Below are positions 1 through 50,700 of a stretch of DNA of 64,000 nucleotides, one piece after another (position 1 is the stretch's first letter; every line of letters begins with the position of its first letter). This DNA comes from Crambe crambe (taxonomy: Eukaryota > Porifera > Demospongiae > Poecilosclerida > Crambeidae). The stretch covers positions 3,968,001-4,032,000 of the forward strand of contig OZ004588.1 of NCBI GenBank assembly GCA_963924555.1, in the 5' to 3' direction. Under the pieces are notes generated by a model. It saw nothing but the letters and a program-made list of their open reading frames with translations, had not been told where the DNA came from and did not search any database. A program made the translations under genes and the position numbers.

Positions 1-1531
1 TGTCCATTCCTCAAGACTCACTGACTTCTGCAGAGGAATCTCTCGCTCTACAGATCTACCCTTGCTTCAGTGGACCATTCGAACTACCAGAGGAGTGCGA
101 GTCAGCAAGTCCAGCTTATCTTATCAAACACAGCAGAAGAGTGGAATTTCAAATAGATGTAATAGTCAAGATCCATCACTACGCTTGTCTGGAGACTGAG
201 GAGGACTGTGATGACATAGTGTTCCTCTCAGCTAGCGCCACTCCAGAATTAAGGGAGACTGGTCCAGTGTATGTCTTCAAGGAAATAAAGGAGGCCAAGG
301 GGGTATTCAAACCTGAATACCAGATAGGAGAGATTGCCTTGAGACATTTTTGTTTATTGAAGGTTGGTATTAAGAGGAAAAGGACATCAAGGTCTCCCGA
401 GTCTTCTGAAACAAAGAAACCTAAAGGTATGCACATGTACATCTAAATTATTACATTGTGCTTATTCTTCAATGTTTCATAGGAAACTCTTTCTATTACT
501 CTGCAAGGCTGTACAGAAGTTTATCTCAAAACTTGGCAGTATTCTGCATGTGCTTGTACCATCAAGTATATACAAAGGTATGTATTAGTATGCACTATGA
601 TGTGTGGATATACATCATGAAATCCACACAGCATTGTGATAGAATAGTGACAAAGAAATGTGAGAAGTGGAATAAGAGTACAGTCACTGCTCGACTAACG
701 TCAGATGAAGTTTGTCTCTGTGTAGCAGATGGGAAAGGATGGAACATCATCTTTGACACAGAACCCACTAAGGTCAGTCCATAGTTGCAGCTCTATCTAA
801 GCTCTTTCCTTTCAAACTTTCTCAGCTATTATACTATGGACTAGGAAAAACTTACTGAACTTTGAATATAACTATGGATTTCATTCCTGCAGATTTTAAA
901 AAGAAATATTCATCTACCTGAAGAGTTGCATAGAGATATCTCTGATTGTCCTGATTATCCTCCAAAACTTTCAATTCAGTATGAGTCACTGGATTCTACA
1001 AATGAACGCTCCAACCCTATTAAGCTGACAGTGAAGGGACTAGACATGGAGTATACCTTTAATATCAAAGATCCAAGTAAGTCCACATAATCATGCTCCA
1101 ACCCCTTAGTGACCTATTCCATTGCAGGTCCTAAAAGTGCCAAGTCCAGCAATAGTCCTGAGAATCAGCCAAGAAGTTCAGTACATTCTCCTGTTATCAT
1201 TACCAATCAGTCATTTGCTTCTACCAAGGATTCTGCTGCTCTTGATCAGCTTTCTTCATGGAGTTTAGATGAACCTACACTCCGTGACATTTTTCGCATT
1301 CTGTACCCCATAGCACACAAGTGGGATGACATTGGCACCTTACTGGATATACCAGCAAATGAACTATCTGTTATCAAGCGGGACAGTGATGGGGTGCATG
1401 CCTGCCTGCGTGAGATGATTGTATTCTGGCTGAACAGTGAGACCCCTCCCACTTGGCAGTCACTTGCTGAGGCTGTGAGAGTCGTTGACCATAAAACAGC
1501 TTCAGAAATTACCAAGACTTACAAAAGATGA
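1..1531 (+). CDS. ZU5-Death domain protein (3' part)
   Basis: The gene enters from the left edge, so its N-terminus is missing. Exons read as 1-426, 483-772, 893-1076 and 1128-1531, all with GT-AG borders and matching phase. The first exon carries a ZU5-like domain: an LETEEDCDD segment, then VYVFKEIKEAKGVFKP and IALRHFCLLKVG, the usual pattern of ZU5 in UNC5/ankyrin-type proteins. The middle exons give a beta-rich stretch of about 150 residues. The last exon ends in a Death domain of about 90 residues (from LSSWSLDEPTLRDIF through the KWDDIGTLLDIP and TWQSLAEAV motifs to the stop). ZU5-Death proteins act as intracellular adaptors in death and immune signalling in other animals; that role here is inferred from domains. 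No membrane segment is visible in the part present. Confidence 0.85.
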
Positions 1532-2042
1532 GGCAAAAGATCTAAGATTACTAATTAGTTATTTAATTACATACCAAGTAGAAATATTGTACTCTTACAG
1601 GCACTCTAGCATGATAAACTACTTCCTTGGATACCTTTAAAATAGCAGTCCACCCCAGTTTATGTTTTGAGACACTTTCATTATAAACTTACTAAATATG
1701 ATGTTCTCTTCAAAAAGAAGCCAGCTGTCAATACCTTTAAGGCTGCAACTAAAGCCTCTGGTTGCAGGAGATATAGAACGTTTACAAACAACTGTAAAAT
1801 TTAAAGGATATTCCTTCACTTAGCTATTAATGTCAAATGAAACACAGACCACAAGCATAACACCATCATTGCAAGCATTCTTGGTCAATGTCACAACCTT
1901 TGCTATCTACCAAAGATAGATGATCTCGAAAGAACTTGAAAGGATGGTGAGTGTTTGTGGCCTACTGCTTCATTTGAAGATTACTCTCTTCACATACCTG
2001 TAGCTGTATTAACCTGACTGGTCATCTGCTCTTCAGCTGTAT

Positions 2043-2370
2043 GACCTGGCCTCGGAGGTTTTGACAAAATTTGCCGACAGTGCAGAATTAAATTCGTGCT
2101 CGCTAAAATTAAGAGTATTGCATTTGTAATGCCATTATACAGAGGTTTTCAGGTTGGTTGACACAAAATTTGCCAACGGTGCATAATTAAATTCGTGCTC
2201 GCTAAAATTAAGAATATTGCATTTGTATGACAGTATATCTTGCTCGCTTGAATTTATCTTGCACATGCGCAAATTCTACTGGTCAACCAACCTGAAAACC
2301 TCTGTATCTTGCTCGCTTAAATTTATCTTGCACATGCGCAAATTCTACCAACCTGAAAACCTGTGTACGT
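2043..2370. repeat. Fold-back repeat with duplicated arms
   Basis: Two direct copies of a roughly 80-bp unit (from about 2056 and 2142, both holding aaattcgtgctcgctaaaat) are followed by two copies of a roughly 65-bp unit (from 2232 and 2310, sharing atcttgcacatgcgcaaatt). The inner borders form a perfect inverted repeat of about 26 bp: 2137-2163 matches the reverse complement of 2281-2308 (ggtcaaccaacctgaaaacc). It looks like a MITE or fold-back element. It fills most of the gap between two convergent genes; the rest (1532-2040) shows no gene. Confidence 0.7.
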
Positions 2371-2474
2371 ACTGTAATGTGCAAAAACGTTGCAAAATCC
2401 AATATTTGTTGTTTGTTTTTCTTTTTAATAAAAATAGTCCACAATAAATGAAATGGGGCTTGGTAATATAAAAG

Positions 2475-3899
2475 TTACTGAAGCTTATTGACAGCATCAT
2501 GCAGAATATCCACTGAATACTTCAGGTCACTGATGACTTTCTGTACTGATGGCTTGTCATCAATCACTTCCATGCTCTGAGTGTACGGGTTGTAACGAAT
2601 CGAAAATGGACGAGGAATAGATCTGGCAAATTCCCTAGATATGCAAAATAGAAGAAAAATCTCACTAGATCTTTGGGATGGACCATTTGTAAATAGATCA
2701 TGGCCAGCTACTTGAAATGAAAATCAGGACAAATCCTAAAATAAAACACCTCTCAGAGTGGAATTTTCTTTCTTCCTAATTCCAAAAGTAGTTTGCAAGA
2801 AACTTCCCAATAATGGACACACTTGGGGGCTAGCATTTTGTCCTTTGTAGAGAAGTGTCCTCATTTAGGGGGGTATTTTGTGTAGAGTTTATTACATACA
2901 AAGGTACTTGTCCTCTGTATCCTCTCTTGGAGTGCCCTTCCTTATAAGTGGTTCCACTGTATTGCATTCTACTGCACTCACATGACTTTCTCTTTGGCAT
3001 CCTCAAAGCTGTTCGCAAGGAAGTAAACAGGCTGCATCTCTGTGATTGGATACTTCTGCACGCATGTCTTGGCAGGGTCAAGAGGTCGAACATCAGGCTT
3101 ATCCGAAAGACAATACTGCATTTAAAAAAACATTTAATTCAATGCAACTCTGCAACTCTTATGATCATGCAAGAATAATATTGGTCAGTTTACCTGCAGC
3201 TCTCCAAAGGAGGAGAGAAGTCCAGCTCCATAGGCTTTGGTCTTCCCTTCCTGTTTGCACAGCCCAAACTCAATGGTGAACCAGTACAACTGCAGCAAAA
3301 GTCATAAGTACATAAACTACATAGCATTATGTGATTCAGTACATAGATACCAAAATAATACAGAGGAACCTCACCTCTAGTCTCGCTAGCCAGCCGCACT
3401 TTTTTCTTTTCTTTTTTTTTTTGCGACCACTTCAAATGGGAATTTCCGATAAAGGACCCTCCAAGAAAAGGCCGCTCTTTTGGGCCCCTTTCCCATAGCA
3501 TTAAATACAATGTCATTTTAAACCTCCAAGAAAAGGATAATCTCTCTACACAGGACAAAATGGTTGATTCCAAATTACTTGGAGGTTCCCCATGCAACCG
3601 CTATAAAGTTCAAGCACTATGACAAACGTACTGTGGCCAGTTGCTGGACATAACTCTCAGGGGCTCCTAGGGAAGCCAGGCCAATTTCCTGGGAGAATTG
3701 GGCAAAGACTGGGTCACAAAACAAGGGGGCGTGGCCAAGGAGCTCGTGACAGACATCCGGTTCTGGAGTGTACATGGGACGGGAACTGTGACGGATGTAC
3801 TGAGTTGAGTGGAACACTCGGAAGGCCAAGCCAGCCAGAAAGTCACGAGATGACAAAAGACCTGTAAGATATTGAAAGCAGTTCTTTCTTAGACCACAC

Positions 3900-3958
<59 letters not shown>

Positions 3959-5985
3959 CCTCCTTGACCCTTTATATTGGTGTACCTGCTACTGGCCTCA
4001 GACGGAATCCAGTACAACTTTGTAAGTACTTGGAGACATCTTCCAGCTGAGGAAGATTATCTTCCCTAAAGAGAAAGAAAAAAGAAAGAGTTGTATTACA
4101 AATATTATAGTCTTGCAGCCTAGAATCCTCTTTTCCTGGCTACTTGACCTGTCCTACCTGTAACCACAGTTCTTGATGAGCAGAGGGAAAACATGGTTAT
4201 GCTCCCTTACAGCATGTGAGGGGTACAGCTTAGTCAGTTCTCTAAAGATAGTTCCCCTATTATAATAACATGGTAAAGGTCGTCATAATTAAAAACTCTA
4301 TTCATAGAGACAGCACGGCACACTCACCAAGTTTTAGTCTCTTCTTCAGTATACTCAATCCTAGGGATTACTTCACCACTGTAATCAGACAATAGTTATA
4401 CATGGATCACCAGACTCAGAGATGAACTTACTGCTTGTAATCATGGGCTATGTCAGCAAATTGCTTCCTCCGTGCCCTATACACTGGGTCAGTAAAACCC
4501 TGAGCAAATAAAGCACTGGTATAGAAGAAGTATACATTGACCATCACTATGGTCACCTTTGAACAACTAGTTCATCTATAACTGTATCTGTGCCCTCTAG
4601 CTGAAGCTATAGTATCTATTCCCCCCCAGAAGCATGACACACTAGGTGAATGGTGTCCAGTCATAAACATCAACTTCCTACCAGAACCATGACACTTTCT
4701 ATAGTGAGAGACTTACTGGATGGTCAGAGTCCAATTCAGCACCATAGGACAAAACTTGATTGGCAAATCGATCCAAGTCCTGAATCCGCCGAGGAAACCA
4801 AGGAACTGAAATTATATTAGTAGTTGGCATTACTTTTATGGTGACAACAACATTAGAGAGCATCTCTCCATACATACTTAAACTAACACTCTGTATACAA
4901 CATGAAAGGACATGGTATACTCCGGGCACTACAAATACAACCTTTGTGAAATTGATATGGTCATATGACCTGAACCTGCTTTTATTATAGCACATCTGAG
5001 CCTGTCCTTTTAGGACACACATACACCTACCTATGACACACCCTAGTTGGGTAACCCCAATATCACCCGAGAAATAGGTAACTCTGAACAGAGGAATGTC
5101 TGCATAATAAGCAGAACCCACTGAAGTTCAGCACTTCCTACTCAAAAAAACATATTGCTTCCCATTTTCCCCTCCCTTTGAAACTATTAGTTTTTTTTCT
5201 TCTCAATATCAGGTACTAAAATGAATTCTTTTTTTGCCAGAAGTAGTTGCCAAGGTGACCATCTCAATACACTCTACCACCTGTATAGTACATTGCACAA
5301 CATAGCAACATACATCTCAATTTGCGATGTGAGTTTTCAACTGATGACAACCAACTTGGATATATACACACCATGTACCAATACATTATTGGGAGAAACC
5401 TTTTATCTTTACCTATCATAGTACAAGAACTTCACCTTCATCATTGCTGGGAGCTCTTGAAAGAACATTAACAACTTTGCAGGATATGGGATTCAGCTTC
5501 TCCAGTAGCAGTTGCTTCTGTTCATCTGTACTCACACAGTCCACATAGAAGTCGTACTCAACCCCTGGGTTGGTCTTGGATGGACGTGACTCAATATGAG
5601 TCATGTTGATCCCCAATTCCTACAAATAACATTTAGATAGTTAATGTGTGAAAACAAACATTGAAAAACTATGACCTGATGAACCGAGAATACAGAATAA
5701 ATGAGAGGGCATGCAAATCCTATACACCCAAGTACTACTGGCTCATAAAATTGATCGGCCTACTCGATCCTTCTCTCTCTGCCCGCTCGCTAGCTAGCTA
5801 GCCAGCTGTACCTCGAAAGGCCTGAGCGCTTTGGCCAGAGTTCCTGGTTGTTCCTGGAGAGAGAAAATGAGGGAGAGAGTAGAAGTGCCGTCTCCATTCT
5901 CCTTCTCCTTAGGCAAGGGGATGTAGGCGTCCTTATCCCCGTTGTCCAACCTCGCCTTCTTCTCAGCAGGACCTTCTTGATCCAT
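2475..5985 (-). CDS. PAH: Phenylalanine-4-hydroxylase
   Basis: Aromatic amino acid hydroxylase, 11 exons on the minus strand: 5812-5985, 5436-5619, 4717-4805, 4432-4499, 4328-4378, 4158-4256, 3986-4065, 3632-3861, 3194-3289, 2982-3115 and 2475-2634. Phases agree and the product is 454 aa, close to the 452 aa of human PAH. Exons 1-2 encode an N-terminal ACT regulatory domain ([18 protein letters not shown], then [14 protein letters not shown]). The catalytic core has [19 protein letters not shown], the iron-ligand motif [14 protein letters not shown] and [17 protein letters not shown], then [13 protein letters not shown] with the glutamate ligand region. A short C-terminal tetramerisation helix ends the protein. 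The ACT domain and motifs fit PAH better than tyrosine or tryptophan hydroxylase, though a pre-split ancestral enzyme cannot be excluded. It would convert phenylalanine to tyrosine in the cytosol using tetrahydrobiopterin and iron. Confidence 0.95.
2795..2959. mobile_element. MITE of the CAGTGGAAC family (one clear end)
   Basis: Inside PAH intron 10. The right end is gtggttccactg followed by TA; the body (aataatggacacactt, tttgtcctttgtagag) matches the copy at 62267-62435. The left end is eroded. Confidence 0.5.
3903..3955. repeat. (TC)n microsatellite
   Basis: About 25 uninterrupted TC units inside PAH intron 7. Confidence 0.95.
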
Positions 5986-6269
5986 GACGGATGGCCGACA
6001 GATGCGTTAGGGTGTGTATTCACGTGACAAGTTTTAATAAATAATTGATTTTTAAGGAATAACGAGCCCCGCCCATCATCTTATGCAGCTAGCTTTGTTC
6101 GTGGGAAAAGGCCTAGCAGCCTCCCAAGATAACTAAAGATATAAGGTTGCACTGTATACAATATTTATGTAATAGAAAAAAATATCTCTTCTTCAGTGAT
6201 TATTGGAATCTATAAAGTTGATGAATCATAATGAATTTAGTGATCAGCATAAAGGTATACACTGTATGA

Positions 6270-7791
6270 TCAAGCAGGAGTCGACTCGCTAATGAGTGCA
6301 GGCGAATTGGACTGCATTGGGCTCAAAGAATCTCTAACCGAGCTTCCTCCATCACTTGGCTTACGCCCACGATTCCCCGTGGCAAGCGAGGGGGCTAGGG
6401 GGCATGTCAGCTCCTTTTCACTGGGGTTGATAGTGAGGGCATGGTAGTTCTTAATGGGTGTGGCCTGCAGAGGAATCAATTAACAACCATTAAGCTAAAT
6501 GTAATGGTGGTCCATAAAAGGATTACTGTGGTAATAGGTAATAACATTCAGCTGTGGATGCAACATTCCCCTTGCCCCGATAATGTTCGCCCACCCCCCC
6601 CCCCCCCCCCCCCCCAAATCCATCCTCCCCAACTCATAATTGGCCCTGGCTGTATGTATCGAGTAATGGATTAAGTGGCTCTGTACCTAGCCCTGTGTAC
6701 AGGCAGGGCCAGGCAGTGAGTCTGAGGTATGCCTTGGTACTTTGCTAATAATTAAAACAGCAAATGCATGTTCTAATCGGCCATTCAAGAGCAATTAGTG
6801 GTTATCCAAATGATGAATGGTATGCCACATGATAGGAAGCATTCACTTACATGCCATATAATGTACCCTCTAATCCCAGCTTACTTGACTACAGAACTGA
6901 TCCCTCTAGGGAGGAAGTGTTGGGTTGGCTAGCACTGACGTAGCAGATGGTCTCACTAGAGGGTGCTGGTGGTTTGACTAGACCACAGTATTAAGGGGAT
7001 TAACCAGACAATAGTCTTCAAGATGTAACCACATTCAAAAGGGATATCCATTTCGATTAGGATGATGATTATACCAAGGTACATATATTCGGATGTATAA
7101 CTCTAAAAACCAGGCTGCAGCTTGGTGCCTTTCTTTGATTTCTCTTTTTTTTTTTAATTAAATTTATATACTATTTTAATCAACACCTGCAGATATCAAC
7201 AATGCACTTCATGCGTTGACTCACCTTAAATACCAGTGACTTCCGATACTCCTTAAGTTCCTCTTTCTCCTCTTCCTCCCTCCTTTCCTTTGCCCGTGCC
7301 TCTCTTGCCTCCATCTCCTTCCTTCGCCTGTCCACTTCACCCTGGTACTGATGCCGCTCTTCAATCCGTCTGTTAATCCCCAAATTAAATGGTTTTGGAA
7401 CTGTCACAGGCAGCTAGACAGACACAAAGAAACTAAAATAGTCTCCAAAATTGATGTTATTATTTCCTGCATGCCAGGATAGACATAGTTCTATTAGCTA
7501 CTGTAATAACACTTTAAGGGATTATTGTCCTATAGTTTCTCATACACTAGGGACTTTTTTACTTTCCTAGTTTCTCGGAATTTGATACGGTGCAAGCGGA
7601 AATCATGGAGGCTATATAAGTTGTGGCTAGGGTCAGGGCTATAATTATAGATACACAGACGCTACACGTCTTACAGATTTTCTCTTGTTAGAAGCGGATT
7701 TCGTAGGCCGATTGCTCTTTTTCGGTATCTCTGCCTCCGAAGGAATAGCAGGTTCTGTCATCACCAGCTCTTTTCCCTCAACACCTGCCAT
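6270..7791 (-). CDS. Small TPX2 C-terminal-domain protein
   Basis: Three exons, 7675-7791, 7225-7413 and 6270-6464, all joined in phase 0, give 166 aa. After a basic N-terminus, residues about 40-105 match the TPX2/WVD2 C-terminal domain: TVPKPFNLGINRRIEERHQ, a highly charged helix rich in R/E/K, and EYRKSLVFKATPIKNY. Known TPX2-C proteins bind microtubules at the spindle; this one lacks the long N-terminal region of vertebrate TPX2, so a minor microtubule-associated role is the safest inference. The start chosen is the ATG giving MAGVEG; a longer in-frame start at 7866 is possible but would overlap the promoter shared with the divergent gene at 7945. The protein ends with a Ser/Pro-rich tail. 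Confidence 0.75.
6594..6615. repeat. Poly-C run
   Basis: Run of 22 C on the plus strand, inside intron 2 of the TPX2-like gene. Length may be unreliable in sequencing. Confidence 0.8.
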
Positions 7792-30836: not shown

Positions 30837-33188
30837 ATGGCTTTATCAGATGAACAAGTTGAGAAACAGGTGAGCTAATTAGCTAGCTATTATATATTTA
30901 CCTGTAACTTAGTCTAGTGGTTATTCCTTCCATGCTTATTGTATCTATGAGTGCATATCGTTAGTATCCATTTCAGAACTTGTTAGCTCTCTTTGCAAGG
31001 ATGGGAGGGGCTTGACAGGGACCTAAGAGAGGGCAAGCCACATTCAAGGGGGATTTGCCCCCGTTATCCAGCATTACTAGTAGAAATACTTAATGTGCAA
31101 AGATTAAGATATTTTGGGGGGACTCATCATCATCAGTGGTCTATTACATTCTGTAGATCAATCACATGAAGCGCTTCATTGAGCAAGAGGCTCAGGAGAA
31201 AGCGGAGGAGATCATGATAAAGGTTAGTGTTGGGTTCGTCGTGGCGCGCTCAAGAGAGTCAACACAAAGATGCTTATTCTTAGACAACTGCACAATGACT
31301 GAATCATATGGGGTTACCTTTTGGCTTTTTAGTAGCCTATCTATGAGGTGACTAACATTTAGTGTTGATGAGGTGTAAATGATGTATGAATCAAAGTGTT
31401 TATGCATAAAGTATTTATAGGTCCAGGAATGTCATTATGCTGGAGCAGTGGCTACTGCTCCAACAGTTAGACAAGCTGCTATTCAGGCATTTAAGTGCTC
31501 GGCATTGACAAGAGTTGTAGCAACAAGACAGCTCATTGTTTCCATTCACATGCATCAATACAGACTTACGCTTGTTGATGTATACACTTAACACTTTATT
31601 CAATGTCTAGAGCATGCATAGGCCAGACCCATGTTTATTGCCTTGTCATGTGATCCATGATCATGTGACTGGTCTGGTCATGTGACCCACCATTGTGTGT
31701 CTGTTCATTGATACAGTAGTGCTGACATTGGCTCTATTCAGTATCATGTGACAGTTCATGTGACCATGTGTGCTAAGCTAACTAACAGTAGGATGTTCTC
31801 GTCAAATTTAGTCTATCAGGACAAAATGACTGGCCATGGTCAGAATGTGATGTCCTGGTGGAGATGCAGGCCGGACTCCACCCCTTAGCCCACCTGCAAA
31901 TAGGTGCTAGGTGCTGATAATGGGTAATTCAACTGCATGCTTGGGTTGGAGGCCATATCACTTGGCACTGTGAACTCCCCATCAGGACACTTGTCCTGTA
32001 TAATGTGACCCATTACAACTGCCCTAGTTAGTAGGTGGACCAGTCTGATGATCTATAAGTTGTCATGTGACTGATCATGTGACCCACCATGATATCTTTT
32101 TACTACAGGCAGAGGAGGAGTTCAACATTGAGAAGGGTCGCCTCTTACAGAATGAGAAAAGAAAAGTCACCAATTTCTTTGAGAGGAAAGAGAAGCAACT
32201 GGAACTGCAAAGAAAGATGTGAGTGATGTAATTTCCTGTCTTAAACATGGCAGAGGTATGGAGAGCATGTCCCATGCAGCTGCACATCCCTGCAGCTGCT
32301 CCGATGTTATTTTTGTTTCCATACAGCCAACACTCCAACTTGCTGAACCAGGCCAGGTTGACAGTCCTGAAGGCACGCGATGACCATGTCAAGACTATTG
32401 TAGAGGAGACCAAAGGGCGCCTTGGTTACATCACAAGGGACTCTGCTAAGTATAAGAAGATGTTGGAGGATCTGATAGCACAGGTGTGTTGCCTCGCTCG
32501 AATGTAGGAGAAGTGGGTGGGGAGGTAGGGGAAATCTGTTAGCTCTGCTGGAAGAGGTATCACTGGTAGATAAATTCTTTGTTATTCTGTTATTAGGGAT
32601 TATTTCAGCTACTAGAAAAGGAAGTTACAATACAATGTCGTCAGCAAGACCTTAGTATGGTCAAGGTGAGTCTGGGATATACCAGCTCTGTGTGCACAGC
32701 TGAGGAAATTCTTATTATTGTAGTCTGTGGTACCAGCTGCTGTAAGAAGTCTGGAAATAGCTAGCAGGATCAAGTGCAAACTCTCTGTGGATGAAAAAGA
32801 ATTCCTACCACCAGATTGGTAAGAAGAAGAGAGGGGAAAAAAAAAAAAAAAAAAGAAGGCCCTGACCGGATTCGAACCGGTGATCTCCTGTTTACTAGAC
32901 AGGCGCTTTAACCAACTAAGCCACAGAGCCAGCTGAACTAGGTGTACTGAATTTATGATTTTATTGTGTAACACTGCAGCTCTGGTGGCGTAATATTGTT
33001 GGCCATGGATGGCAAAATCAAAGTAGTCAACACATTGGAAACAAGATTAGAACTCTTAGCAGCACAGGTAAAATGAATAAAAAACAGAAATAGTATACAT
33101 GATGTATTCATCTACCCTTTACCAGATGATGCCTGAAATTCGATCCATTCTATTTGGAGTCAACCCTTCTCGTCATTTCGTGGACTAA
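30837..33188 (+). CDS. ATP6V1E: V-type H+-ATPase subunit E
   Basis: Eight exons, 30837-30869, 31157-31222, 32109-32218, 32327-32483, 32597-32665, 32724-32818, 32980-33067 and 33126-33188, give 226 aa, exactly the human length. The N-terminus [11 protein letters not shown], the long helix [34 protein letters not shown], the C-terminal [20 protein letters not shown] and [20 protein letters not shown] are all diagnostic. Subunit E forms, with G, the peripheral stalk of the V1 sector that couples ATP hydrolysis to proton pumping at endomembranes. Exon 7's intron-side neighbour carries an antisense tRNA gene. Confidence 0.97.
32857..32930 (-). tRNA. tRNA-Thr (anticodon AGT)
   Basis: On the minus strand the sequence starts GGCTCTGTGGCTTAGTTGGT, has the anticodon arm CCTGT-CTAGTAA-ACAGG with anticodon AGT, and the T arm CCGGTTCGAATCCGG. 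The acceptor stem pairs with one G-U. Box A and box B are intact and a T-run (the plus-strand A-run at 32837-32854) gives a Pol III terminator. No intron. It closely resembles animal tRNA-Thr-AGT. It sits antisense in intron 6 of the V-ATPase E gene. Confidence 0.95.
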
Positions 33189-35015: not shown

Positions 35016-38000
35016 TCACTCTGAGTCTACATCCATGCTGTTGCCATGCATGTGGAACTTGGGATAGGCCGTGACGGGGGGAACAGTGAAGAGTGCATCC
35101 GACCACATCTTGATGGTGTAGTACTTGTGATTCATCTCGAAGATGAAGTGCTTGGATTTGATGACGGGCAACTCGCAGCCCTTGGCCGGGAAGTGGCAAA
35201 TGATCCCCCAGGGTGCACTGCAGTTGGAACAGAACATTCTCTTCTGACGATTAACACGTTTGATGGTTTTGTGCTTGGAACGATACGGCTTTGTGGTAAA
35301 GCGAGTGCTAAAATCCCGATGAGGAACTACACAGTGCCGCCCTCCATCCACAAAGAGAGAATACACCTCCATCCCATGGCAAGCAAAGACCTTACACTTC
35401 TTGCATCTGAGTTGGATCATCTCGATAGTTGGATCTTTCGGTTTCTTCTTTCTTCTTTTGGAGAGTGGGACGATATAGCGGGCTTGGAAGTTATACATGA
35501 CATCTTCAAGGGCTCTGGTCAACTTCTTCTTCAAGTCTTCTCCAGTGGGCAGGCTCTTTAGTCCTGCTTCCACGCGACACATATCAAAATCTCTGCGAAG
35601 ATCGGCAAACGATTTAGTCTCCTTGGATCGGACAAGTGCCAACACGTATTCCATTTCCATCGTGTCTGGTGGCTTGGATGTCAGGTGAAGGCGTGCTATG
35701 AAGTCAAATTCAGACCGGATACCTTCGACCTTGACTGTATCACTCTCCAAAGCATACGGGATCAAAAGAAGGCGAGATTCACCCCTGGCAAAGGCATCAA
35801 GACCTTCCCTCCCTTTCTCCAAAAACTCTTCTGGAGTCACCTCCTCTTTCTCAACCTCGGAACACGTGTCGGTGGAGTAGTTGGCCACCAGGAAACGAGG
35901 GATAGCAAATGGCCGACTCAGAAAATGAGATTTGGAGATTTCTTCACATAGAAACTGTGCATCACGAAACGAGTCCACAAACAGAACACCACGAGATTTC
36001 ACCCTGGAGTTATTGAACTGCTTGCACACGATATCGTTAACAGCTTCAAGGATGGGGTTCTTCATAGTCATAAGTGTCTCAAGCTCTTCCCTCATGTTCT
36101 TTAGAGAGTTGTACTGGGAAGGTGTGAGGACGGCCTCGTCTCCCCCCGCAAGGATCGAGCTCTTCCCCCCTCCCTGCAAAATGTCAAGGGCACTCTCGAA
36201 TCCAAACTCCAGAAAGGTCCGCAGTGCTTTAGCATAGCAGAGCAACAACTCCAACACGCGAAGACGATTGGTTACCACAGCAGCGGACGTGGTTTGATCC
36301 AAGGTTCCAAGCAAAGAAAGGTTGACTTGCAATTGGGATTGCACGAATTCACCATATTCAAACGACCATTTGGGATCAGCACAAACGAAACTAATGGTTT
36401 GTTCCCACTTTGTCATTTCGACTTCAATACGCATAACGAAATCCTTCTTTGGGTCACGGTAGTTGAATTTCCGTGTTATTATTTCTGGTTTCGGACGAGG
36501 TTTTGAGCTTGGGAGCTGGATGTACGTATCAGAAGTCACATCTTCAGTGAAAACGATACCGGCAGTAGAATCCACACCCCCTGCTACTTTCAGGAGATGT
36601 GTCTGCATCGTTTCTTCATCCAGAGCAGTGGATCGCTCACCAGGGTCACTTGTGATGCCCACCATGAAGGGGCTGGGAGGTTTGAGGGTCCTGTAGACCT
36701 TGTCCTGGAGGTACTTGTGCACGGCAGCTTCCAGAGGAGTCTGGAACATGGCAAGATGGCAATCATCGATCAAAAGAAGAGAAATTGAACTGAATTTAAC
36801 CACTTCTGCTTCCAGTTCACTACATAATTTCCCTGTTGTGCAGATAATCACACTATCCTGAGAGAGACACAATTTTGTGGTCATCGAATTTTCTTCTGTC
36901 CCGGTAAACAGCGCAACATCCAAATTAGGAAGGATTCTCTTCATCTCCTCTAATATCTCAACTGCTCGTGGTTTCGTGTTGGCCAATATTATGCACTTTA
37001 CAAACTTGTCTTCTTTTTTCCTCTCTGCAGCATGCTGACACAGCACCATGGCAGCGTAGATGCTCTTGCTGGAGGCGTGGGGGATGAGGGCAACGTAGTT
37101 AGTGCCGTGGGGACAACGTTCCTGCAGCCGCTCCAGTTTGGAGGGGATATAGACCTTATCCACGTCAATCCTGAAGAGGGAATCAGGAGGTAGGGAGGCA
37201 TAGAGAGGGGACTTAGGTTTCAATGTAGGTGAAGAGGGTGGAGTCTCGTAATTGTCTGTCTCAACTTCCATTTTGTTTGCTTCTAAAGTTAAAAGAAAAT
37301 TTTTTTAAAATAAATACGAGTAATATGGACACTGTAGACATGAATCAATGTGGATAACATATACCGGAGCAGTACTACTAACTTCTTCAGTGTATTTGTT
37401 ATAACAGCAACTAAGTTCTGAATGGTAGATAGCTGATCATGTGATGATCATGCTGATGGTGAGGCTTTATTAGTGACTGCTAGCACTGATTTCAAAACAT
37501 CTGATTGAATGTCAGACTACTATAATAGCCCAGGGCTGCAACACAAACACACACTAGAGCGTTTTTGTTTCTACATCCCAAATCAAATTGTAGCCCAGCT
37601 GTAACCAGTGGATCAATGCTCCATCTAACATGAAAGCAGGAGATTTGCCATTTTTTGTGAGGCAAAAGGAAGGCTGATATAGGATACACAGACTGTTCCA
37701 GTGACATTTTGTGTATGTCTGTATGACAGTCCCAAGTTGAAACTTTGGCTCACCATGACTCATGACTACTAGTGGCCATGGTCTGGAAGTTTGGTGTGGA
37801 GATAGTCTAACCATTATAGAACACATGACTGAAGTTTGGGAGAAATTCATCAAAGCACACTTGAGAAATAGCAACTTCGAATATTCTATTTCTATCCTGA
37901 TACTATACTCGGGTGGAACACTTTAGTCATGCCTTGAGAAAATTAAGCCATTCTGTCCAAAAAACATACCTTCCTCAATCTCATCTGGACGAGCAGGTGC

Positions 38001-40451
38001 CAGCACGTTGCGAATGTCACGCTCATCATTAGGATCAGGTTCCTGTGAGGAAAGGGGAAAGTGTGAGAAAGGGAAGTGGGAGGAGGAAGGGAGAGTGGGA
38101 GGAGGAAGGGAGAGGGAGGTGGGAGAAAAGCTTTAATTTTGATGCAAATTAAATTTTTATTAATTTAAAAAAAAATTTTTTTTTAAAAGCAACAAAAAAA
38201 CATTAAAGCTTGCGATAGCATACAGGGTTTTGCCTTTTAGCCACGTTATAAAGTAGTGGTCAAGGCTATTATGCTCAACTACTCACTCTTCCTTATAAGG
38301 AATACTTTGAGCTCTTGTAAAAACCCTATTAGCCAAATACCAATTCTGCCAACTTACTGGTATTACAAGTTTGAAGCAGCAACAGTTCACAGTGTGCACC
38401 TTCTCAATCTTCAGGTCGTCCAGCTGGGTATGATTCAGGGGAAAGGCCATGTTCCGTGCAAAACTTGGGATTTGGAACGTGTATGTTACCAAGCCAGTAA
38501 TCTCACTGGGGACGACCGAGACAAGCTTGAGGACATACTTGGAGAGATGCAACGTGTACGCCAAACGACTGCGAAAAGACTCCACATCCTGCAGTCTGAT
38601 CGACTGAAAATTCTTCTCAAGGGTCAGATCAATCAGACAAAAATTGGATTTCACAGGGAGACAGAAAGGTTGTGGACACTCAGCAACCTTACGGCTGGTG
38701 TAGGCATTTATCTTGTCTCGGTATCTATCCACTTGACGTCGATCACGAGCACTCCCTCCCAAATTTAGTAGCATATCAATCATCACGTGATAGTTGAATG
38801 CAGAGAAGTAATCGAAAATGTTCGGCAAAATCTCGTTTATGGATTCAGCTGCTTTGAACTGAGGCAGAAAAGGGGTGCAAATGCTAGTAAGAGGACAGGT
38901 AAAGGTTGGAGTGATTTGAAATGTGTCGACAGTCCTCAGGTAATTTGCCAGCTCTGCAACTGTCACGTTTTTTCTATTTAGAGCACGCCATACATATGTG
39001 ATAAAAACGTTGAACTCCACGATGAGTTCTTCATAGTCAATCTGCAGCTTCCTCCTCCTGCTCTGCCCACCATCAGTCTCTGATTCGTCAGGTACGAGGT
39101 AGGGGAACTGAACGGAAATGGTACTTTTATCGAGAATGGAGGATACTAGCTGTTCACAGCGACAGTTCTCAATACTACACCCAATAGGAGCCAAAGGATC
39201 ATTGGTGCTTTCTGCAGAGAGAAAGTGATGATTATGTAAGTGAAGCCAAAGCTTGACCAGTTTTTCTAATGATCCAACCAGTCTTTGTTTTGCTATGTCA
39301 AAATGTAGCCCCCTTTTAACTTAGGTAAAGTATAATCATACATCACTAATCCTAACCCCTTTAATTCGAACCTTCACAAATCTGAATAGCTACTTTAATC
39401 TTTTGAGGTGCATTAAATGGAAACTAGAATCAAACTGTATGCATTCACTAATCCAAATCTTTCACAGATCCAAATGGGCTTTGGTCCCAAGCTATTTGGA
39501 TTAGTGAGGGACCACTGTATAATCACGTGAAGAAAGCTGAACACCTAGTGAAGAGCTAGCTCTGATTAAGGTCACAGTCTTTAGTTTATGAAGATATCAT
39601 AAAACTAACTGTAGAATTTGTTTAATTGCAAATCTTGACTACATGCAGTTTCAGTCCTTGCCGGATGGTCCAATGGTGCTATTGACAGTATACGCTCATC
39701 CAGGGATTACTACACTTTACTGTTGCCAACTGAAAGTAGGGAACCTCTCTCTCTCTCTCTCGCTGATCAGCTGAGACCAACGGAGAACTTCCCCTCCCTT
39801 TGAGAGTTTCACTTCCTCTGAGTCTCCCCTTTACAACTAACTTTGCTGTACACCATACATACCTGATTCTGCCAAGTTCCCAGGGTATTTCTTCTCCAGT
39901 TTATCGGCCAGTTCTTCTTCGTTCACTCTGTCATGCTTGAGCATGTTGACCACAGTACCCCATGTGGGGCAAGGACACATCCACTCCAACCATTCCTTCA
40001 CCAGAAAGTGGAGTTTCTCTTGCTCTGTGGTATCTTCCTTCTTCATCTTCTCGAGCACTTTTTTGGAAAATTTGAGTATCGAGCCGATTTCAAACCACTT
40101 GCTGGCAAGGTCTTTCAACTCATTTTCCACATTTTCCAAATCATTAAGTGTCAGAGGTCGAACTATAAAGATAAAATGGGAGGTCCATAGCTACTAGGAA
40201 ATTGTCTGTATCCAATACCTAGCTAGATCTAATAGCACCCCATGGTTGAAACCACACCCGTAATAGGCGATCTTACTTTTTTCAGGGCCTGGATTGAGTT
40301 CAATGTCACCACACAGCAACAAGAGGAGCTGGCTCAGGTTAGGATTGGCAGACAGCCCGTTCATCGCGTGGTCCAGCAAGTAGATCCCTAGAGACAGTGC
40401 GCACCAATTAGAATTAACTGATTGTGGATGGAAAACGCGGTTCTCAATCAT
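35016..40451 (-). CDS. RIG-I-like receptor with 2A-like N-terminus and Death domain
   Basis: Exons 40277-40451, 39863-40162, 38358-39211, 37970-38042 and 35016-37282, phases consistent, give 1222 aa from the ATG at 40451 or 1193 aa from the ATG at 40364. In order (1193-aa form): a 2A-like peptide (CGDIELNPGP, residues 18-27), a Death domain (about 37-120, DLASKWFEIGSILKFSKK ... WLEWMCPCPTWGTVVNML), an unrecognised domain of about 285 aa (YEELIVEFNVFITYVW, FDYFSAFNYHVMIDMLLNLG), then a RIG-I-type DExD/H helicase and the C-terminal regulatory domain. The last has the zinc cysteines CKKCKVFACHG and CSNCSAPWGI, and LPVIKSKHFIFE, close to RIG-I. ATPase motifs are degraded: Walker A reads PHASSKS and the DECH box reads DDCH; the QTRGRGRAR motif is not visible. 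RIG-I-like receptors sense viral RNA in the cytosol; here RNA binding by the C-terminal domain is plausible and ATP hydrolysis doubtful. Confidence 0.92.
40284..40364 (-). other. 2A-like ribosome-skipping peptide at the N-terminus
   Basis: The 27 residues from the ATG at 40364 (MNGL) to the proline codon at 40284-40286 form a leucine-rich segment SQLLLLLCGDIELNPGP. The end matches the 2A consensus D-[VI]-E-x-N-P-G-P; the skip would fall between Gly (40287-40289) and Pro. The hydrophobic run just before it could act as a signal sequence, as described for 2A-like N-termini of sea urchin NLR proteins. A good acceptor (ctctag, minus strand) lies just upstream of this ATG, so the short start may be the real one. 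Confidence 0.88.
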
Positions 40452-40813
40452 TCAGCAACCGGTAAATAGCTAGTAACAGTATCATAAAACAACTTACACT
40501 CCTTTTAACGCACCAATCCAGTTACAAGACTAGCAAGTGTTCACGAGGCCTCTCGAGAGGCGTAAAACCTCAAAAGTAATCTTTGCTAAAATTTATTGCG
40601 CGTGCGCGAAAGCATTCCCTCCAAATAAAAGAATGCACATAATAGACTATCATGATTGTATAATATAAAACCAATGTTTCACTATGCTACTCTATGATTC
40701 TGTGGACATAATACAATAGTTGTATGCTACTATTAAGTGTATGCAAGAGAGCTATAACAATATACTCCTAATGGCAGTGAACAGCCAGCCATACTACACA
40801 CCAATCAGGTCAG

Positions 40814-43800
40814 TTAACTCATATCCAATTTCACTCGTTTCGAACTACTATCCTCAAGAACTGGACGGCATTGTTCAGAGAAAACTGGTTTCAAAGCTAA
40901 AGAGGAAGCTTGGGTTGTCTTGACTCCATTGGCTGCCGAAGTAGCAGGAGAGAGGGGGAAGGAGTAGCAAGAGAGAGGCAGGAAGGCGGAGTTAGGGGAA
41001 CCACCAGGAAAGAAAGGATAGGCAGCAGATGTTGTGGCTAGAAGGGAATTAGGGTTGAACGAATTACCCCCGTCCACTGCATAAGGGAAGATTGGTCCCG
41101 TTTGGTTCTGCCGCATACTGTTAAGGAGATGGGCGTGGTTTGTATTTATAAGCATGCTCTCCACACTTGCAAACTTCTTGAGTTTGGATTGTGGTGACAA
41201 AGTGCCATGGGTCACAGGAGTCGTGGGGGTGGTGGTCGATTCAGAGGGAGTGGCAATGCCAGCACTTGGTGGGGACACCATTCCAGCAGCAGCTGCACTC
41301 GTTGGGCTGTCATTAGGTGGGCACGAGACAGCTAACGGAAGAGGGTTAGGCTGTGGAGAGGTTAGGAAAGTGTTTGCCAGTTCCTGTGGGCTGACGAGGG
41401 AAGCGGGACTGGTGTTAGGAGTGGGCATAGATTCAGCCTTAGGTAGGATGGAACGACCACTTGCTGCTGCTTGCTCCAGTGTGTTCTGAAATTTGAGCAC
41501 AAACTCGTGAAATACTGGTGCCAGTTCAAGGCAGTCAAGAAAAATATACTACCATAGTTTTACATATTAATATAATAATATTCCTGCATGTGCTAGAGCA
41601 CAGGAAATGATGAAAGGATATCATGTGGAAACTTGTGAGAATGCTTCTGAATTTCAGCCTCAAACTCCTTCACTTCTTGCAAGTAGTCAATCTGCCTATA
41701 GGTCACTAGAAATAACAGATACATAATATGATCATGAGTCAGCATAATATAATATAACCTACACTGTCTGGCCAACACACACTTTCCATTCGATGCAGTT
41801 GCCTGAGAGGAAGTGGTGGGAGGGGAACGCGTGCTTGGGACCGGCTCCTCCCTATTTTTGGCTAGCATCTGCTGAAGGGGTACTGGAGATGGCTGAGCAT
41901 TGTGTCGTGCTCTAGCTCCCGCCCCAAATGACAGGCTCCTCTTGAAACCAGAGTCCTTTGATTTGATGGGCGAGGAAGGGGCAGAGCTTGGCTGTGAGGA
42001 CGCAGCTCTTGGGTGGTTTTTGACTTCATACTGATGAAGGAATGGACGCACGCTCCCAAAAGATGGCTTTCTCGTAAGAGATGTCCCCCCTGCTCCTCCT
42101 CCATTTCCTCCTTTCCTCTTGGAGTAGAACGGGTAGAGATTGAACTCACTTTTACGAAATACAGCTGCATAGTGTGTAAAGGGGAAATATTTCATTGCCC
42201 CTTTATTAAGAGAATCATTGAGCACTCACGTATAGTTTGTATCTGATCCAGAGTAGGCCCTGCCCATGAGTAGCCAGGCATTTTACGATGGTTAGGTGCC
42301 AGGAAAGTTTTCTTACGAATAAGTCCCAGTGTGGTCAGCACATTGGCTATATCATAGAGCCTGCGCACTTTAGCTAAAGGAAGGGAAAAAGCAGTAGTGC
42401 ATACAGGATTGATCAACAGGGACTTACTCTTTGGATTGGTAGGCTGCAATGAAAAAGAGCCGTCATCTGGCATCAAAATATTCCCAGCAAAATCCAGAGT
42501 GACTTCATTTTCCTGTCATAAACAGAATGTTATTTTGATCGTAAATTGAGTTCGGTTCTTTACTTACTGGAGTGACCAGAAAGAGCATGATAAACTTTTG
42601 ACAGAGAACACCTAAACTTTTATCCCAACGTCCTCCACCAGCTGAAGAGCTTTCTTCAGCTCCTGGAGGATCCTCCATCTTGTAAGAAGCCTCCAGTTGT
42701 ACCTCACTCCTAGTTGTTGTAGGAGGTGGAGTTGGATTATCCTTGGCTGCCTGAGATGAATCCAGTCCATTTTCCTTATTAAGAAGATTTCTGAAGTCGG
42801 CATCATCTTCTGCCATAGCCTGGATATTATAAATCAGTAAAATTGGTCTGTAATGCACTGAAACTCAAAATATATCTCTCTTTCTGACATGCATATTACT
42901 CCTAAACATTTAAGTTTCTCCTTCCAGTTAACTGATTGCACTCACTCTCATCTTGGCAAGGGTGACCAGCAGGTTGTCCTGGCCGAGCCACGTATACCAG
43001 TTTTTTGACTGCTTGACAATCATCTCCAAGGCTTCTAGGACATTAATAATGTCATAAATACGACGACGATTGGTTCCAAGTTTCTTGGACATTGTCTCCA
43101 AACTGAAGTCAGTACCAACACCTATCTCACTCTCAGCAATTGATAGAAATCTGACAAGAAAATAATATTATAAGATAGGATATACCTTTAATATACAATA
43201 ATACCTCTTGCATAGAATAGCTAGCGACTTCATTTTCCGGCCTCCTCCTTCCTCCCCACCTTCCTTGGTGCCAGAAACCTTTCCTTCCTCACTCACAGGA
43301 GCGTCCTTTCTGGGTGCCTCCCTCCTTTCAGACACCATCTCCAGTGTGACCTGTGGTTTATCTTCTTCCTCCAGGGCATGTGCTGTACTGGCTGCCTGTA
43401 TTAGCACCTTCAAGTTGGCCAGGGGTGTAAGTGGTGGGGTCCCTATAAAAGGTTAAAGTTGCTCAACTCCATATATAAAAAAAGATCTACTTCTATAGTG
43501 AGTTGTAAAACATGCCATTGGGATCACTACATCTCTTCCTTTGAGTAGCTAGTATAAAGAGAGGAGATAAGGAAGGATTGCTAACCAGTTGACTCACCAC
43601 TGGAGGATAGAAAGTAGTAAATGTGGTCTGTTTAAACACAACATAGTCTGATTTCCCATATTGGGGTTAGCATTGACCCACTAGCTGAATCAAGCTTGAC
43701 CTAAACTGGTTTGACCTAATAAGTGGGTCAAGCTTGACCTTAATTTTGATCTGACCTGGTTTGGATGCCTGTCCTGATATCTTTAATGGGGTCTTAGGAG

Positions 43801-47700: not shown

Positions 47701-50700
47701 GTAATAGTTAGAACATGGTAGTCTGGTGATTATGGCCAATAAACAACCGAATCCGAGGGCGCAATTCTAGCTGTTATATATCCCCAGGGCGCACGATTTC
47801 ATTGGTCGGTCTGTAGCTAGAGCGTAGCTACCCCTTAGTTACGAAACAAAACAAAAACTGCCATGGCTTGTCCCTGTCCTGTGATGTGCCGTTGTTCAGA
47901 CACCAACTCTAGCCTCGTGCTCTCAAGCAAGACTACGAACTACGAGGCTCCTCCCATGCCCACCACACCCAGCTATTAACGAGTTCCTCCACCCATGTTT
48001 TGTGTTTGCTAGCGACAGCGAAGCTAGCGGAAGGTATGACGATCGTTAACTTCATAATCATCTTCTTCCAACAGTCAGCTATAAACTACCAACATAATAC
48101 AGAGACAGAAATAAACTCTTTAGTAATAGCTAGGTAATGACAATGTTATCTGATCATTATCTCATAAATTATCTTCATTATCATCTTCTTCCAACAGTCA
48201 GCTTCAGAAAACCTAAAACTGTTGTTATTCATAGCCTGGGGAACAGTGCGTTTATGAGTCATAACACACTTTACCCTAAGGGAGGGAATTTATGACAGTA
48301 AGAGCACTTTTCTCTATGGGAGTAAATGTATTAGGTGGGATATATTTATTACATAAACTGGAATAAGCTGAATGATAATGATAAAACCTTGGGAAATATA
48401 TCAGTTTAAACACTGCCTTATGTCTTGCCACTATGCCTTCAGGTCTCCCCCCTATGCTATATCTTGCCACTATGCCTTCAGGTCTCCCCCCTATGCTATA
48501 TCTTGCCACTATGCCTTCAGTTCTCCCCCCTATGCTATATCTTGCCACTATGCCTTCAGTTCTCCCCCCTATGCCCTATGTCTTGTCACTATGCCTTCAG
48601 TTCTCCCCCCTATGCCCTATGTCTTGCCACTATGCCTTCAGTTCTCCCCCCTATGCCCTATGTCTTGCCACTATGCCTTCAGTTCTTCCCCCTATGCCTT
48701 ATGTCTTGCCACTATGCCTTCAGTTCTCCCCCTATGCTATATCTTGCCACTATATGCCTTCAGTTCTTCCCCCATGCCATTACTGGTGGCTGGCTTCTAC
48801 ACCAGGAGCCATCTCAGAACACTCATAATCATTGGGTCCCTCTCCTTCATGATGATCGTATGGTCTTGCCCCTATGCCTTCAATAAATCCTGGGGAGAAC
48901 CCTGTGAAGTGTCTAATACAAATGGTGGTTCCCACTATATTTTCCAACAGACAAATCTGAGCTTGAGGATGATGAGAAGTTGGTGGATCAAGGGATCAAG
49001 TCTGAAGCTCTCCACTTTCTGCGTCAGAGTGTGGTTGCTTCCCCCCAATTCCATCAGGAGGTAGGTGGGGCATGTGGGTGTGGTAGCACATCAAATTTGT
49101 ATACAAGAAATTACTTGTAATAATAATAATGTAGGAGTTTTATGTGAGAAGAATGCACTGGCTTGTGACAAGTTTCATCGTCAACATGCATCTTAAGGTA
49201 CTGTACTGCTACCTTCTCATGACTGGTCATACAGCAATAGTCCAAGCTTTTTCCCCCCAAGCTTATTTCAATGGCTCATAGCCCAACCTCTGAAAGATAT
49301 TAAGCAGCCTTGGTTTTTATAATATTATTGTCTGGACATAGTACCTTGTGATAGATGCATAGCTGTTAGTATGAATTAGACAGACCAGATGAAATCAGTA
49401 AATTGTCTGGACATACGTACAATATCATGATCTATATTTAATCAGACAAAAATAATGGAGAAATTGCACTTACCTGATGGTCCTAAATCCGTTGGAGATG
49501 ATCCCATAGGCATATCGACCTTACAAATGGACCAGACAAATGGAGAATTGGCTGGAAATGCCCTATATCATGCTGTTATTAAGCACTGTAGACTGTACTT
49601 GAGCAATACTCACACACCCTCCCTTCAATTATAAGAGGAGTGCATGGATGGAGAGCTAAGTAGGAGGAAATACCCACTAATTGGTGCAGCCTCCAAATAA
49701 GGACACTCCGACTAAAGGACTAGCTTCATTCCCAGGGTCATGAATATGCTGTGGTTTACACAAACTCTGTAGTCCTTGTAGGCCATACATACCTAATATG
49801 CCATCTTTACCAGTAAACACAGACAGCTATATATCGTGATGCCATTTTTAGCTTGATGTGGTATAATTGAAATATCGACAACCCTTACCAAATGTGTATT
49901 GCAATGGTGATGACCCTTACCAATATATGCCAACTGCATAACTAGGATTCATACAGAAGGGGAGCCCTGGGATACGATCAGAGGGTTGTCCTCAGAGTGT
50001 GCTAGCGCGGCGGAGCACCACGCTATTCTGTTTAAATCAAAACAAACGAAATTCTGACAGTTTCAGAGCTTAAAGCTAGCTAGAAAGCTTCATACACATT
50101 ATTTATCAGAACTAAGGTAGGCTTTCCAGCTTACATGCTTGGAATTATGAACTAAGCTATCTATGCTACCTTTGGTGCCTTGTTTCTCTTCTCTAGGCTT
50201 TAATTAATTGGCACTTCATAGCACCAGGAGGAGCTTCTCACTGACTCTAATTTGAAACTCCACCCACTGACATGTTGCTTATTCAGCATAATTTTGTGCA
50301 CGTGCATTAAGCTGTTAGTATATTTACCGCTCTACTTTTACAACCCTGGTAACTGAATTAAATGCTATGAAGGAGCATTAGAGTCTTAATGATCATCAAT
50401 GATGACAGCTCTGATGAGCAGAGGCACATGGATTTTAGCCACAGCAGTAGAAACAAAAGTCCACGCTCTTGCATTTGAAAAGATTATAGCGGTTTGCACC
50501 ACAACCAATTCTGCATGAGTAAAGTTAAACTTGACCCCTTACCAAACGATTTTTTTTTTTTTTTTTTAATAACTCACTGTGCAGTAGAATAATAATAATA
50601 TACCCTCCAAGCTAACAGGTATCTGAACATCATGCATGCAGCAGTATGTACCTATTGGCAACCAATTAATGTCTGTCATAGTTATCAGAGAGTGCGGTAG

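Follow-up and report, generated by a model that had tools for sequence, protein, structure and literature searches.

A candidate 2A-like (StopGo) leader encoded by the first coding exon of a gene derived from RIG-I-like receptors in the sponge Crambe crambe

Introduction

Can a sponge gene with homology to a cytosolic RNA sensor begin with a ribosome-skipping signal? Such signals are known from viruses, mobile elements and immune receptors of sea urchins. The question is raised by a locus on contig OZ004588.1 of Crambe crambe, where a short open frame encoding a 2A-like motif lies upstream of exons related to RIG-I. The stretch analyzed here, referred to as the window, comprises 64,000 nucleotides. 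Use of 2A sequences by cells is described as rare in the available part of PMC12846837 (Li et al. 2026), and the cellular examples named in the accessible portions of that article and of PMC4981915 are, besides retrotransposons, the NLR proteins of sea urchins. We asked what the motif is, whether it belongs to the gene, what protein follows it, and which explanation best accounts for these observations.

Results

A single 2A core that fits a published StopGo class. The motif is carried by the minus strand (40451..40284), within an open frame that covers 40194..40451 and that, read from 40451 to 40194, translates as MIENRVFHPQSVNSNWCALSLGIYLLDHAMNGLSANPNLSQLLLLLCGDIELNPGPEKSK...; frame 1 of the plus strand of 40284-40451 contains two stops. 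The full 2A core predicted for this segment is present, though on the minus strand, as D-I-E-L-N-P-G-P at 40307..40284, and it conforms to the pattern (D/G/C/N)(V/I)ExNPGP. NPGP, and with it the core, occurs only once across all six frames of the whole window. The chance expectation for D[VI]ExNPGP is 5.1e-5 per window (both strands, first-order Markov); since many windows were presumably scanned for the original prediction, this figure is no corrected P value. The leucine-rich run said to precede the core is likewise there: the preceding hexapeptide, LLLLCG, fits, by eye and not by the motif matrices of the paper, the L-rich class that ends in (A/S/C)G before p12 and that is represented by upstream motifs 2 and 6 in the available part of PMC12846837. 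As far as that text goes, one example of motif 6 is active in vitro, and more than 14 residues matter for StopGo. The coordinates of all features are given in Table 1.

Table 1. Features of the leader gene and of its immediate upstream flank (positions within the window)
Feature	Position	Strand	Basis or remark
AATAAA, likely end signal of upstream same-strand gene (presumed assignment)	40592..40597	-	sequence
First in-frame ATG (Met1)	40449..40451	-	directly 3' of in-frame TGA; weak context, T at -3
Second in-frame ATG (Met30), context gcgATGA, G at -3	40362..40364	-	sequence; codon-usage log-odds higher after than before
Exon 1: MIENRVFHPQSVNSNWCALSLGIYLLDHAMNGLSANPNLSQLLLLLCGDIELNPGPEK and one further base; donor GTAAGA, phase 1	40277..40451	-	gene model; only ATG plus GTRAG phase-1 candidate in 40900..40163
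2A-like (StopGo) sequence LLLLLCGDIELNPGP	40284..40328	-	sequence; upstream class per PMC12846837 section 10
Predicted skip site	between Gly 40289..40287 and Pro 40286..40284	-	sequence
Intron 1, 114 bases, phase 1	40163..40276	-	gene model
Exon 2, symmetric 1-1, helical domain of ~100 aa, Death-like only in its position and its helices	39863..40162	-	gene model; five-helix structure model
Exon 3, 284 full codons, without Pfam family	38358..39211	-	gene model
Exon 4, acidic linker	37970..38042	-	gene model
Exon 5: SF2 helicase region with degenerate motifs, RIG-I C-terminal domain and stop codon	35016..37282	-	Pfam, gene model, PDB alignments
DEAD domain match	36747..37109	-	E 1.4e-8, 35.1 bits
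RIG-I_C-RD match	35070..35414	-	PF11648 E 1.4e-17, 64.4 bits vs cut-off 25.6

A five-exon gene model. The five exons join as a product of 1,222 aa and a stop codon, with GT-AG borders in all four introns and phases of 1, 1, 0 and 1 as calculated from the exon lengths. The motif-bearing exon, predicted to be the first exon of a receptor gene, would hold that place in this model, which splices in frame throughout. Its product runs ...LSQLLLLLCGDIELNPGPEK and is followed by a canonical phase-1 donor, AAAAAA/GTAAGA at 40277/40276. The exon was also said to end with the motif, which is right in that the motif lies near its end, but E, K and one base still separate NPGP from the donor. Candidate first exons were scanned over 40900..40163 with GTRAG donors, rarer donors being listed separately as loose. 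The only ATG-started frames that have such a donor in the phase needed by exon 2 begin at the two ATGs of exon 1 (2 of 2 rows), and two ATGs within intron 1 (40243, 40188), by arithmetic, do not share the frame of exon 2. Looser GT donors are present elsewhere in the exon 1 frame and in the frames from three ATGs further upstream, so that the five-exon model is the best but not the sole one. Given the phases of the introns on either side, exon 2 is a symmetric 1-1 exon, a type that is easily shuffled.

The gene lies downstream of another gene on the same strand, which is presumably of the E2F type (E2F_TDP match, E 7.7e-8, in frame 42192-42515) and the last open frame of which seems to end at 40814. 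Matches to E2F_TDP, Nup192/205 and SRCR were found in 3 of the 10 open frames scanned; they are in keeping with an animal, and the RLR layout makes a sponge plausible. Elsewhere in the window there is a tRNA-Thr (AGT) gene at 32857-32930 on the minus strand, and the repetitive open frames on both strands of 48276-48890, with ATMPSVLPPM-like units, suggest a minisatellite.

Codon usage and the start codon. As a whole, the codon usage of exon 1 is unremarkable, with a log-odds score of 0.09 bits per codon: of the 1,642 overlapping open stretches of 58 codons that the window contains, 27% reach at least this value, and frame 3 of exon 1, despite its seven stops, outscores the coding frame (0.17 vs 0.09). 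The score is uneven along the exon, at -0.10 per codon for codons 1 to 29 (non-coding-like) and +0.28 for codons 30 to 58 (coding-like). Codon usage lends weak support to Met30 as the start and none to exon 1 as a whole. By the Kozak preferences, the first ATG, with T at -3, has a weak context, and the second has G at -3 (Table 1). With a start at Met30, the stretch up to Gly55 of NPG corresponds to a leader of 26 aa.

The protein downstream of the leader. The best PDB sequence matches are MDA5, RIG-I and LGP2 (best E 6.1e-19), and no separate Helicase_C match was obtained by Pfam. The motifs considered below are designated by the helicase nomenclature, and the residues discussed are those that we take to be needed for ATP hydrolysis. 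Three PDB alignments show PHASSKS in motif I in place of PTGSGKT, DDCH in motif II where RIG-I has DECH and the MDA5 entry has Q at that place, and TSD in motif III in place of TAS. The arginines of motif VI have no counterpart in these alignments, in which that stretch is aligned with low confidence. The C-terminal domain keeps both CxxC pairs, that is, its zinc cysteines. Since several ATPase motifs are lost, the gene is termed RLR-derived (from RIG-I-like receptors, RLRs) rather than considered a bona fide RLR motor. The product of exon 5 is likely a pseudo-helicase, which may yet bind RNA via its C-terminal domain. Of the predicted receptor identity, the homology to RIG-I stands, as seen in the PF11648 and DEAD matches, and its reading as an RNA sensor is weakened by the loss of several motifs for ATP hydrolysis.

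The Death exon that had been proposed was not recovered by Pfam or by fold search. Exon 2 has no Pfam match to a Death domain at E up to 1 or up to 10, where most matches above about 0.1 are removed by the filters, and its output consists of sub-cut-off matches only, such as Sec20. A single-sequence structure model of this exon has five helices at a mean pLDDT of 66.2, and Foldseek against the PDB gave no match at E <= 0.001 and 82 at E <= 10. Death domains have a characteristic helix pattern, and we consider exon 2 Death-like from its position and helix content; its place agrees with the layout of Amphimedon RLRs. Exon 3 matches no Pfam family, and its structure model is unusable (mean pLDDT 41.6; Foldseek against the PDB, no match at E <= 0.001 and 518 at E <= 10).

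Relatives of the leader in retroelements. A 257-Gb collection of prokaryote genome contigs was scanned with the pattern YTN YTN DSN GGN GAY RTN GAR NNN AAY CCN GGN CC, which as protein reads [LF][LF]-x-G-D-[VIM]-E-any-N-P-G-P, where x (DSN) is A, C, G, R, S, T, W or stop. It matched five stretches (L001 to L005), and all five lie in long open frames of reverse transcriptase elements, which indicates that it picks out users of 2A specifically. L002 to L005 are of the LINE type, with RVT_1 matches at E 7.1e-30 or better and an endonuclease domain in three of the four. L001, L003 and L004 have their 2A in the reverse transcriptase frame itself, and L002 and L005 have it in a frame of its own, immediately upstream of that frame. 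The contig of L005 belongs to a Poribacteria MAG and carries LLLLLLCGDVEVNPGP, which is identical to LLLLLCGDIELNPGP at 13 of 15 positions. Poribacteria are mainly sponge symbionts. All five contigs are evidently eukaryotic DNA in prokaryote bins; the four with LINE-type elements stand in the collection under MAG or symbiont genomes of prokaryotes, as contamination. L001 is an LTR-type element with two 2A cores: in 2-7387 (minus strand) of this Planctomycetota MAG contig, a 2,462-aa frame has GDVEPNPGP before and after the reverse transcriptase.

No homologue of the leader gene was found in the prokaryote and viral contig collections searched, and therefore selection on NPGP is without support. 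The 2A pattern had no match in the viral contig collection, in which the search with the helicase/C-RD frame returned two pattern stretches and no relatives. PF11648 was registered in none of the four genomes behind L002 to L005; because it was registered in none of 14 controls either, this zero does not argue for its absence. In the 84 genomes of the phylum of the Poribacteria MAG, scanned without positive control, the helicase frame had no match.

Hydropathy of the leader. Hydropathy was assessed with the values of the Kyte-Doolittle and Hessa scales. The best 8-residue Kyte-Doolittle mean of the leader is 2.31, as compared to 3.50, 3.31, 3.06 and 3.72 for L002 to L005 when each frame is read up to the end of the core, and its 12-residue maximum is 1.80 versus 2.49 to 3.44. 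These LINE frames, at 92 to 110 aa, are longer than exon 1 and offer more chances of a high value, so that the comparison favors them; in L002 the maximum sits far upstream of the 2A.

Discussion

Taken together, these data make it probable, if only moderately so, that the first coding exon of this RLR-derived gene encodes a StopGo/2A leader that works in the mature mRNA. If the gene is transcribed and spliced as modeled, ribosomes would initiate most likely at Met30, or else at Met1, and a skip at the Gly-Pro bond would release a short peptide ending in ...DIELNPG, of 26 aa if counted from Met30. Translation would then continue to yield a cytosolic protein of 1,167 aa that starts with Pro-Glu-Lys and comprises the Death-like exon, the degenerate helicase and the RIG-I C-terminal domain, whereas a minority of ribosomes would fail to skip and make a product that retains the leader. 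Alternatively, the leader could act as an upstream control of rate, with drop-off at the skip site reducing output.

Other explanations need to be weighed against a working leader. The unremarkable codon usage of exon 1 would be expected if the exon lay outside the mRNA and the motif were a chance open stretch next to the true start. However, the low chance expectation applies to the core alone, even before the hexapeptide, the N-terminal position and a donor in phase two residues further on are considered. Because of these motif statistics, the phase-matched donor and the lack of a rival first exon with ATG and GTRAG donor in 40900..40163, a chance open frame is disfavored, and we regard it as quite improbable. 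Since all five pattern matches fall in retroelements, four of them LINE-type, exon 1 possibly derives from the N-terminus of a LINE retrotransposon, as a remnant or by exaptation, with a 2A that perhaps still acts and perhaps does not. Near-identical sequences close to the start of LINE-type frames in four contigs, the one in L005 with 13 of the 15 residues of the leader motif, speak for this origin. Yet the likeness ends at the 2A core: the six LINE-type frames of L002 to L005, compared with the window by tblastn, hit the core at E 0.099 and a second place at E 0.45. This search gave nothing credible beyond the core and thus no reverse transcriptase or endonuclease downstream of the leader. 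A 15-residue match may also be convergent. With no further likeness between leader and LINE detected outside the core, descent and convergence both fit, and we consider the LINE origin rather unlikely.

A further reading concerns what a leader would do rather than where it came from. By analogy with sea urchin NLRs, unskipped product might enter the secretory route and skipped product stay in the cytosol, as the original prediction had it, and the place, the length and the similar motif of the leader are those of its sea urchin counterparts. Nevertheless, the hydrophobic core (LLLLLC) is short, and with only six contiguous residues it renders a role as signal peptide doubtful; the Met30 form has no positive residue before this core and acidic residues immediately after it, the hydropathy maximum lies below that of all four LINE-type frames in a comparison that favors those longer frames, and an RNA-binding domain outside the cytosol would make little sense. 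Judged by hydropathy, the signal-peptide half of the prediction fared poorly: secretory targeting of the unskipped form is only possible, and the dual routing as a whole appears quite improbable.

A broader idea is that a family of cytosolic RNA sensors in an early-branching animal independently gained a 2A leader, by which one mRNA would give rise to a cytosolic receptor that starts with Pro and to a second form that keeps the leader and resides elsewhere. The ratio would depend on how efficiently ribosomes skip, and viral infection or translational stress could alter that efficiency. This idea is speculative, and we consider it distinctly unlikely. If it were true, 2A leaders would be a general device of invertebrate innate receptors and not an oddity of sea urchins, and a second receptor family with 2A would suggest that innate immunity has recruited StopGo more than once. 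Such a family would also allow a direct test of whether skipping signals disturbed translation to the receptor. Equally, the locus may show that LINE 5' ends supply leader exons to host genes.

The original prediction knew of no 2A report for the RLR family. Among the literature matches listed there is indeed none for a RIG-I homologue. The terms 2A-like, NPGP, ribosome skipping, signal peptide and 2A peptide are all absent from the main text of PMC8998645 on RLRs, 2A-like and NPGP are absent from PMC12909245 on sponge NLRs, and the same 2A terms are absent from PMC12723187 on an Antarctic sponge. However, according to the available part of PMC12846837, Rao et al. scanned cellular proteomes for 2A, and the lists of Rao et al. 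2025 may already include this gene family, for which reason absence from print is not claimed. Since 2A leaders on innate receptors are already known from sea urchin NLRs, a RIG-I homologue as a new host is believable but unproven.

Three known systems resemble the present one. Odon and colleagues reportedly described, in 2013, the 2A sequences of APE-type non-LTR retrotransposons. The likeness to such elements, here L002 to L005, consists in LLL[SC]GDVExNPGP close to the start of the frame; the difference is that the leader in C. crambe is an exon of its own, which the model joins to a host-type gene. According to the accessible part of PMC8998645, the layout of both Amphimedon RLRs is Death, helicase and RD, and with these poriferan A1-type RLRs the protein shares an N-terminal Death region (here a presumptive one), a helicase region and a RIG-I C-terminal domain, but it has degenerate helicase motifs and, in between, a 284-codon exon without known family. 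The sea urchin leaders (SpNLR2A) differ in that they precede NACHT-LRR receptors, whereas a RIG-I homologue with a presumptive Death-like exon follows here. In the available text of PMC4981915 (Roulston et al. 2016), 12 of 14 of these leaders are predicted as signal sequences, in contrast to the short hydrophobic core seen here, and one that was tested recodes at about 80%, a qualitative estimate. In that same text the N-terminal 2A leaders of sea urchin NLRs are 26 aa long, a count that is given without specifying whether the last Pro is included and that equals the length of the present leader from Met30; both share the core D[VI]ExNPGP ahead of an innate receptor, which in the sea urchin has an N-terminal Death domain.
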